Origin: Mariprofundus ferrooxydans PV-1
GTDB lineage: Bacteria > Pseudomonadota > Zetaproteobacteria > Mariprofundales > Mariprofundaceae
NCBI RefSeq assembly: GCF_000153765.1
Contig: NZ_DS022294.1
Coordinates: forward strand, 1,145,626-1,178,993
Direction: 5' to 3'
DNA: 33,368 nt
Each line of letters starts with the position of its first letter. The stretch's first letter is position 1. A program made the translations under genes and the position numbers. The notes below the pieces were generated by a model. That model made no database searches and was not told the DNA's origin. It worked only from the letters and a program-made list of their open reading frames with translations. This document shows, one piece after another, positions 31,344 through 33,011 of this stretch.

Positions 31344-31715
31344 TCAGGCTGTAACGGGCACTTCGACCATCTCACCCGCCTCCCGGAACGGTAAGGGGTA
31401 GAGACCGCGCGGGCATGGCCCGGACAGACAATCACCCGATGCAGGGTCAAATACCGCGTGATGGGTGTGACAAATCAGATGTTCACCATCTTCGGAGAAG
31501 AACTGCCCCGGAATCCAGTCCAGTGGCGATCCTGCGTGCGGGCACTCATTTTTCCATGCCTGCAAACGCCCGCGATAACAGATCAGAAATCCCTGACCAT
31601 CAATATCGACCGTGCGCCCGCCGGATAGCTTCAGCGTGGATTTCAGTGCAAATACGGTTGCCCTGCCCTCCTCCGGACGGTTGACCTGTTGCCACTGAGC
31701 GCTGTCAGCGCACAT
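31344..31715 (-). CDS. Rieske [2Fe-2S] ferredoxin-like protein
   Basis: The 123-residue protein is a small soluble Rieske domain. Iron-sulfur ligands are C58 and H60 (ECPHAGSPLDW) and C82 and H85 (ICHTHHAVF), a CxH-N21-CxxH arrangement. The length matches free-standing Rieske ferredoxins or NirD-like proteins; no membrane anchor or oxygenase domain is present. It may donate electrons to an oxygenase or reductase encoded elsewhere. Its start (AGGAGAT upstream) lies just 22 bases after an intrinsic-terminator hairpin, which itself sits downstream of a near-consensus promoter, so expression is probably controlled by termination. It converges on the isomerase gene. Confidence 0.88.
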   Translation of the reverse strand: MCADSAQWQQVNRPEEGRATVFALKSTLKLSGGRTVDIDGQGFLICYRGRLQAWKNECPHAGSPLDWIPGQFFSEDGEHLICHTHHAVFDPASGDCLSGPCPRGLYPLPFREAGEMVEVPVTA

Positions 31716-31737
31716 CTCTGCCGATCTCCTGTCGATT

Positions 31738-31770
31738 AAAAAAGAGGCGGCTGCATGCCTGCAGCCGCCT
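31738..31770 (-). terminator. Perfect intrinsic terminator after hemY, in the Rieske leader
   Basis: AGGCGGCTGCA/TGCAGCCGCCT (31745-31755 with 31760-31770) forms an 11-base-pair stem with a four-base loop, followed on the minus strand by C then six T (complement of 31738-31743). It closes the hemY operon and is also positioned inside the 5' leader of the Rieske gene. Confidence 0.9.
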
Positions 31771-31788
31771 GCGACTCACGTGAGCCGC
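31771..31788. promoter_or_regulatory. Palindrome centred on CTCACGTGAG next to the terminator
   Basis: A 10-base perfect palindrome CTCACGTGAG (31775-31784) is extended by GCG (31771-31773) and CGC (31786-31788) with one mismatch. It lies downstream of the Rieske promoter and directly next to the terminator. It could be an operator, or the first hairpin of the leader. Confidence 0.45.
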
Positions 31789-31805
31789 TAATCCTTTACG
31801 TTGTT

Positions 31806-31834
31806 TATATAGCAGTGACACAGGCAAATGTCAA
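31806..31834 (-). promoter_or_regulatory. Near-consensus promoter upstream of the Rieske leader
   Basis: On the minus strand, TTGACA (complement of 31829-31834) is followed after 17 bases by TATATA (complement of 31806-31811). This sits between the hemY stop and the terminator at 31738-31770 and gives a start near 31799. It is the best -35 match of the window together with that of the 70-residue gene. Confidence 0.75.
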
Positions 31835-31850: not shown

Positions 31851-33011
31851 TCAGTCGCCGCTTTTTTGTTTATGCACAGATGCCAACGCCTGACTGAAGC
31901 AGTGTGCTGCCTGTTCATATTCGCCCGCCGTTTCATGCCAGCGCGCCATGCTTTCCCAGGCCGGAGCATAGTCGGCCTCTTCAGCCAGCTTCTGCATCTG
32001 CTCATATGCCAGCCCGCCCAGAGCGGACGCCTGCGCCAGCTCTGCGCGCAGCCAGCGCAGGGAGAAACTGATCTCGGCCGCCACTTTTCGATCCAGTTTG
32101 CGATAGACCTTGAGCGGATCATGACGCTGCAATATGGCCAGCAATTCGGTCGCAATCGTCATATCATCGTAATAATGCAGGTGATTCAGCCACACCCGTC
32201 GGGTATTGCTGCTATCGCCGTCATGCAGCTGCACCCGGCCATAAGCCAGCATCACCGCCCCATCGGCAGGACTCAAACGATACGCTTTACGCAACAGGGC
32301 CGGCGCCTGCTCTGCATCTGCCTCAGCCAGCTTCAGGTAGGCATGAATAAGCCGTGTCTTGATCCCTGCAGCAGACTGCTCGCCCTTCTTCCAACGCTCT
32401 TCCAGCAGATCCACCAACTCCTGCCAGTTACCCTCTTCTTCCGCGACATCGGCCATTCTGCTTCTGGCCAGTGACGAATTAGGCGCAATCTCCAGCCACG
32501 CTTTCAGATGCTCCTTGCGCACAACCAGATCCGGTCTGGGCGAAACCAGCGGCGACGTTACTGTTCGGGCTATCATCGCCGTCAACATCGGATCGGCCTG
32601 CGCATCGGGAGCGGGCTGATCTTTCGCCGGCGTTCCCATCACAGCCAGCAGGTCCAGAGCCCAGTCGGGCAGCACTTTACGGGAACGTTTTAACAAGCGG
32701 GCATTCAGATCGCCATCACCATTGAGCCAGCGCTCCAGCGCTTCCCGCAAACGCTTCTCCCGCCGCTTGCGACTGCCCATACTCAGGCTTTGCCACAGTT
32801 GACCGGGACCTGAGAGGAGACCGCCCAGTACCGTTCTGAGCAACCAGAGCAGCAACAGAACAACAAACAACGCAACGATGAAAGCACCCTGTCGGGTTTC
32901 AAACACCCAACCGAAAGCCTCCAGCCGCAAGGGCTGATCGGCGATATCGGGAAAGATGATCAACGCGACACTGACTGCCAGCGCCAGTACAAGCAGAAAA
33001 ATCAGCCGCAT
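31851..33011 (-). CDS. hemY: HemY-family membrane TPR protein
   Basis: This HemY is the proteobacterial tetratricopeptide protein encoded with haem-synthesis genes, not the protoporphyrinogen oxidase of the same name. The 386-residue protein has two N-terminal membrane segments (about 1-20 and 40-62) and then a mainly helical cytoplasmic or periplasmic part with TPR-like repeats to the end (EAPNSSLARSRMADVAEEEG-type helices). GGGAGG lies six bases before the ATG. The start overlaps the stop of the upstream gene (ATGA), so they are coupled. Its precise function in haem synthesis is still not defined in the family. Confidence 0.88.
   Translation of the reverse strand: MRLIFLLVLALAVSVALIIFPDIADQPLRLEAFGWVFETRQGAFIVALFVVLLLLWLLRTVLGGLLSGPGQLWQSLSMGSRKRREKRLREALERWLNGDGDLNARLLKRSRKVLPDWALDLLAVMGTPAKDQPAPDAQADPMLTAMIARTVTSPLVSPRPDLVVRKEHLKAWLEIAPNSSLARSRMADVAEEEGNWQELVDLLEERWKKGEQSAAGIKTRLIHAYLKLAEADAEQAPALLRKAYRLSPADGAVMLAYGRVQLHDGDSSNTRRVWLNHLHYYDDMTIATELLAILQRHDPLKVYRKLDRKVAAEISFSLRWLRAELAQASALGGLAYEQMQKLAEEADYAPAWESMARWHETAGEYEQAAHCFSQALASVHKQKSGD

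Follow-up and report, generated by a model that had tools for sequence, protein, structure and literature searches.

The minus-strand interval from position 31834 to 31738 is very probably a complete, free-standing small-RNA gene that carries its own promoter and terminator. The window, i.e., the whole 33,368-nt stretch of Mariprofundus ferrooxydans PV-1 DNA that was analysed, holds this unit between a hemY-like gene and a gene for a small Rieske protein (Table 1). The predicted transcript is about 52–63 nt long and is made of two stacked hairpins, the second of which is the terminator, and the predicted promoter is of the sigma-70 type. Comparison among genomes shows a unit that is under selection, single-copy, and intact while its neighbours change; such a unit points to the RNA itself as the most likely product. 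Its marks as a small-RNA gene are a conserved promoter of its own, a covarying structure without a conserved reading frame, and independence from its neighbours. The unit was seen without Rieske, without hemY, and without both, which argues for a small-RNA gene rather than an attenuator or a mere terminator. A preliminary description of the interval had offered a small RNA as one option, and this option is now strongly supported because 28 genomes retain the promoter along with both hairpins, with covariation.

Anatomy of the unit in the window

The two promoter elements are separated by 17 nt, and in many relatives the −10 is of the TATAAT, TAAAAT, or TATAAA type. A search for TTGACA-N15-19-TATATA gave one match in the window and none in 100 shuffles; a stricter promoter scan of the window did not list TTGACA-N17-TATATA, because TATATA lacks the final T. 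Judging by the position of the −10, transcription would start at about 31799. The resulting 62-nt segment folds at −35 kcal/mol vs. −19.4 ± 2.9 for shuffled sequences (z = −5.3, 0/200), and the window copy scores 73.6 and 68.1 bits with covariance models R1 and R2, respectively. The Rieske ATG lies at 31715, 22 nt after the terminator end on the minus strand. In databases, most relatives of the Rieske protein come from Mariprofundus and other Zetaproteobacteria, a class known for neutrophilic iron oxidation.

The preliminary description had already named this promoter, hairpin 1, and an 11-bp hairpin followed by U6, as well as the 22-nt gap to the Rieske ATG; all are present at base level, on the strand claimed. 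Its positions also hold, except that the T-run ends at 31738 and not at 31737. Its statement that a separate Rieske promoter has no room is correct for the window, so transcripts may read through into Rieske.

Table 1. Features of the predicted small-RNA unit and its two flanking genes in the window.
Feature	Position	Strand	Basis or remark
−35 element TTGACA of the small-RNA promoter	31829..31834	−	sequence; 27 of 29 copies have a promoter scoring 9 or more out of 12
−10 element TATATA	31806..31811	−	preceded by TGC (extended −10)
Predicted small RNA, about 62 nt	31738..31799	−	start predicted; end is the end of the U-run
Hairpin 1, GCGGCTC-ACGT-GAGTCGC	31771..31788	−	7 bp including one G-U
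Hairpin 2, intrinsic terminator stem-loop, AGGCGGCTGCA-GGCA-TGCAGCCGCCT	31745..31770	−	11 perfect bp
Terminator U-run (T6)	31738..31743	−	sequence
hemY-like TPR protein gene, upstream context	31851..33011	−	PF07219 HemY_N, 1.7e-9
Small Rieske [2Fe-2S] protein gene, downstream context	31344..31715	−	PF00355 Rieske, 2.8e-10

Conservation and distribution

The first relatives, found in the DNA before Rieske, had the same anatomy with different letters in the stems. Covariance model R1 then found 29 copies of the promoter and two-hairpin unit, scoring 52.7–82.7 bits and spread over 28 of the 78 Zetaproteobacteria genomes; the scores fall into two groups, the in-class background reaching at most 28 bits. 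The model search of this segment, and a comparison of the leader in related genomes for covarying stems, were both suggested in the preliminary description, which had also raised the case of relatives conserving neither the promoter nor the hairpins. The relatives that carry the unit conserve both (the promoter in 27 of 29 copies), and their stems do covary.

Over the 28 aligned copies, covariation was 0.439 vs. 0.234 ± 0.015 in shuffled alignments (0/500); slid controls did not exceed 0.139. The two hairpins together comprise 17 pairs, 12 of them changed on both sides, with 99.4% of cells paired. Hairpin 1 contributes seven pairs (five doubly changed, 99.0% paired) and hairpin 2 ten modelled pairs (seven doubly changed, 99.6% paired). 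The 28-copy alignment was fitted to the model structure and is thus biased towards it; a plain MAFFT alignment of nine copies, made without such fitting, led to the same result, with 100% pairing and double changes in 8 of 17 pairs. As read from these alignments, compensatory changes maintain both hairpins, and RNAalifold predicted the two hairpins only. Sequence identity was 0.73–0.82 in the hairpins and 0.86 in the two loops vs. 0.37–0.39 in the flanks and leader (leader, 0.39).

In 27 of the 29 copies, the −35/−10 pair scored 9 or more out of 12, also in copies where this pair overlaps the 3′ end of hemY, vs. 1.5% of random windows from the same loci. The −10 lies 8–19 nt from hairpin 1 in 28 copies, and transcription should therefore start about 1–12 nt 5′ of that hairpin; G034 is the exception, with its top-scoring −35/−10 pair 30 nt away.

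No conserved start codon or reading frame was found across the RNA copies. A hidden peptide, read in the frame SGSLEPLAVADG..., was considered and rejected: only 5 of the 29 listed copies have an ATG at this position, and the frames shift. The loci with an ATG before hairpin 1 are L082, L076, L099, L101, and L102 (genomes G031, G032, G089, G091, and G092, respectively). The frame in the five copies crosses the terminator, and that of G091 enters Rieske; we judged these to be chance.

When the Zetaproteobacteria without the RNA were searched for diverged copies, the best score was 25.2 bits, i.e., background level, and no match above 38.6 bits was found in 398 genomes drawn from the phylum. The out-of-class matches G142 (38.6 bits) and G279, G299, and G394 (about 32 bits) were inspected and are unrelated terminators. 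As far as searched, the RNA is confined to one family of marine iron-oxidising Zetaproteobacteria. Mapped on a hemY tree, its presence requires 9 changes vs. 18.6 in shuffles, which suggests that it passed on chiefly by vertical descent and was lost in places, although some apparent losses may be gaps in the assemblies. A repeat element was rejected, since each genome has one copy, G016 excepted. That bin (L002, L077) has two copies each of the RNA, hemY, and Rieske; because the members of these pairs have different relatives, it looks like a mixture of two strains.

Gene neighbourhood and alternative readings

A Rieske leader would always stand before Rieske, and a pure hemY terminator always after hemY; neither expectation held. 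The order hemY-RNA-Rieske is found in most genomes, including that of the window. The RNA follows hemY without Rieske in G016 (contig C13), G027, G032, and G034, and precedes Rieske without hemY in G003, G018, G091, and G094; G033, which also has no detected hemY upstream, has a locus that begins at a contig edge. Neither gene adjoins the RNA in G006, G012, and G022. In G012, the RNA is flanked by a sensor kinase gene and a small gene of unknown function, and hemY and Rieske are on other contigs; in G003, G006, and G022, it follows an ahcY-type gene. Conversely, hemY and Rieske adjoin directly without the RNA in G023, G024, G025, and G036, and G005, G010, G013, and G014 have Rieske in other places, also without the RNA.

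Three further observations concern these loci. In G006 and G022, SAH riboswitches precede the ahcY-type gene upstream of the RNA (L073:986-1058 and L071:5023-5097). In the same two loci, an inverted-repeat-like stretch, AATTC-rTTATCAm-GAATTG, lies upstream of the −35 of the RNA and is possibly a regulator site. Loci L005, L006, L010, and L016, with no RNA directly in front of Rieske, have another conserved stretch, CTTGTTG...CGCTGTTTGAATGG, before the Rieske start.

The alternative that survives best is a dual output, in which a constitutive promoter yields mostly the small RNA and, through fixed leaky termination, some Rieske mRNA. This is a real, if somewhat doubtful, possibility, and it would hold in addition to the small-RNA gene, with which it is compatible. 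The RNA and Rieske are found side by side behind four different upstream genes (hemY, ahcY, an OmpA-like gene, and an outer-membrane protein gene), suggesting that Rieske uses the promoter of the RNA by read-through, and the 13–82 nt between the modelled RNA end and the start of the Rieske match leave scant space for a promoter. However, the RNA is independent of Rieske in G012 and in the genomes without Rieske behind it.

The preliminary description had also raised a conditional terminator before Rieske, controlled by iron, redox, or haem state. Such an attenuator or riboswitch, in which a signal chooses between termination at 31738 and read-through, is improbable, even though the promoter, hairpins, and Rieske start all lie within 120 nt with no space for a second promoter, and 22 of the 29 copies have Rieske immediately behind the RNA, some of them without hemY upstream. 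There is no Rieske behind the RNA in G012, G027, G032, G034, and contig C13 of G016, and there is Rieske without the RNA in G005, G010, G013, G014, G024, G025, and G036. Nascent folds, i.e., those formed before the 3′ arm of hairpin 2, keep hairpin 1 in 28/28 copies (5–7 of 7 pairs), and the competing or antiterminator pairing that the preliminary description had proposed to look for in relatives did not recur among the 28. The leader is unconserved, so it offers no candidate aptamer. The proposed sensing of iron, redox, or haem likewise found no support: the link to iron and haem consists of the neighbouring genes only.

A similarly small chance attaches to the unit being simply the transcription terminator of hemY, preceded by a promoter that arose by chance, a reading that the preliminary description had itself doubted. 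The RNA does stand behind hemY in most copies, and its intrinsic terminator is strong; however, 8 of the 29 copies have no detected hemY before them (one, G033, at a contig edge). Moreover, the promoter is conserved in 27 of the 29, hairpin 1 covaries although termination does not need it, and the loops are conserved beyond what a terminator requires.

A sponge that titrates CsrA is the least probable reading, as just 9 of 28 copies contain GGA, which lies outside the conserved loops, and the four g10 genomes carry the RNA without a CsrA match, despite CsrA being present in 63 of the 78 genomes (that of the window included) and the RNA being structured and Hfq-independent.

Mode of action and relation to known RNAs

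No match over the cut-off to Hfq (PF17209) or ProQ (PF04352) was obtained in the 78 Zetaproteobacteria genomes, whereas the E. coli control was positive; a second Hfq model (TIGR02383) likewise gave no match over the genus. Barring unrecognised relatives of these proteins, the small RNA must therefore work without them, and we propose that it acts in trans. Because the loops are its most conserved part, they would make the contacts: C-UCUU-G in hairpin 1 and C-GACG-G in hairpin 2. Either the pyrimidine-rich top of hairpin 1, CUCUCUU, would pair with purine-rich ribosome-binding sites, or the loops would bind a protein; we place the pairing slightly ahead. Against base pairing, little single-stranded seed is available: each loop has just 4 nt, and the short 5′ leader is not conserved. 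In the window's own lineage, both loops are changed (ACGU and GGCA), which weakens any mechanism that depends on loop sequence or strict loop identity.

As a side effect, the terminator of the small-RNA unit would end hemY transcription. Part of the transcripts may read through into Rieske, which seems to have no room there for its own promoter; partial read-through is plausible because the RNA and Rieske usually stay adjacent. A role in cis is conceivable in the 22 of 29 copies next to Rieske. The fuller picture, a compact (~55 nt), nearly fully paired RNA that works by its loops alone and whose promoter also feeds Rieske, is speculative and rather unlikely to be right in every part. If true, the shared promoter and read-through would tie the level of the RNA to that of the Rieske electron-transfer protein. 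Since such bacteria seem to lack the two common RNA chaperones, this RNA gives a defined handle on small-RNA action in them, and iron-mat metatranscriptomes that already exist allow a direct test with the covariance model and the 29 copies.

No Rfam 15 family reached its gathering score over the RNA, and the papers searched on small RNAs or Hfq in Zetaproteobacteria or Mariprofundus, or on hemY-linked small RNAs, contained nothing relevant. The Rfam model nearest to a strong family member is the atoC RNA (RF01733), which likewise comprises a −10-like stretch, a hairpin, and a terminator hairpin with a U-run. However, the scores were 22.3 and 22.8 bits vs. a gathering score of 50, and the hairpin sequences and loops differ; the atoC RNA was not reported for the window copy. 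The architecture, as judged from sequence, thus resembles that of the atoC RNA without membership in its family.

Attenuator leaders of bacterial operons have a promoter, a leader hairpin, and a terminator directly before a gene, as does the unit in the window; unlike them, the unit has no conserved antiterminator, aptamer, or leader peptide and is also found without the downstream gene. Short, Hfq-independent small RNAs of two hairpins with pyrimidine-rich loops are known in the actinobacterial 6C RNA and the streptococcal Cia-dependent csRNAs. The predicted RNA shares with these its own promoter, a last hairpin that is the terminator, a pyrimidine-rich hairpin top, and no Hfq, but it has CUCUCUUGAG and CGACGG as loops in place of C-runs or UCCUCC, and it belongs to a different phylum; the likeness is a resemblance only. 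On present comparisons, it appears to be a new family within a known kind of small RNA, well supported as an RNA gene.
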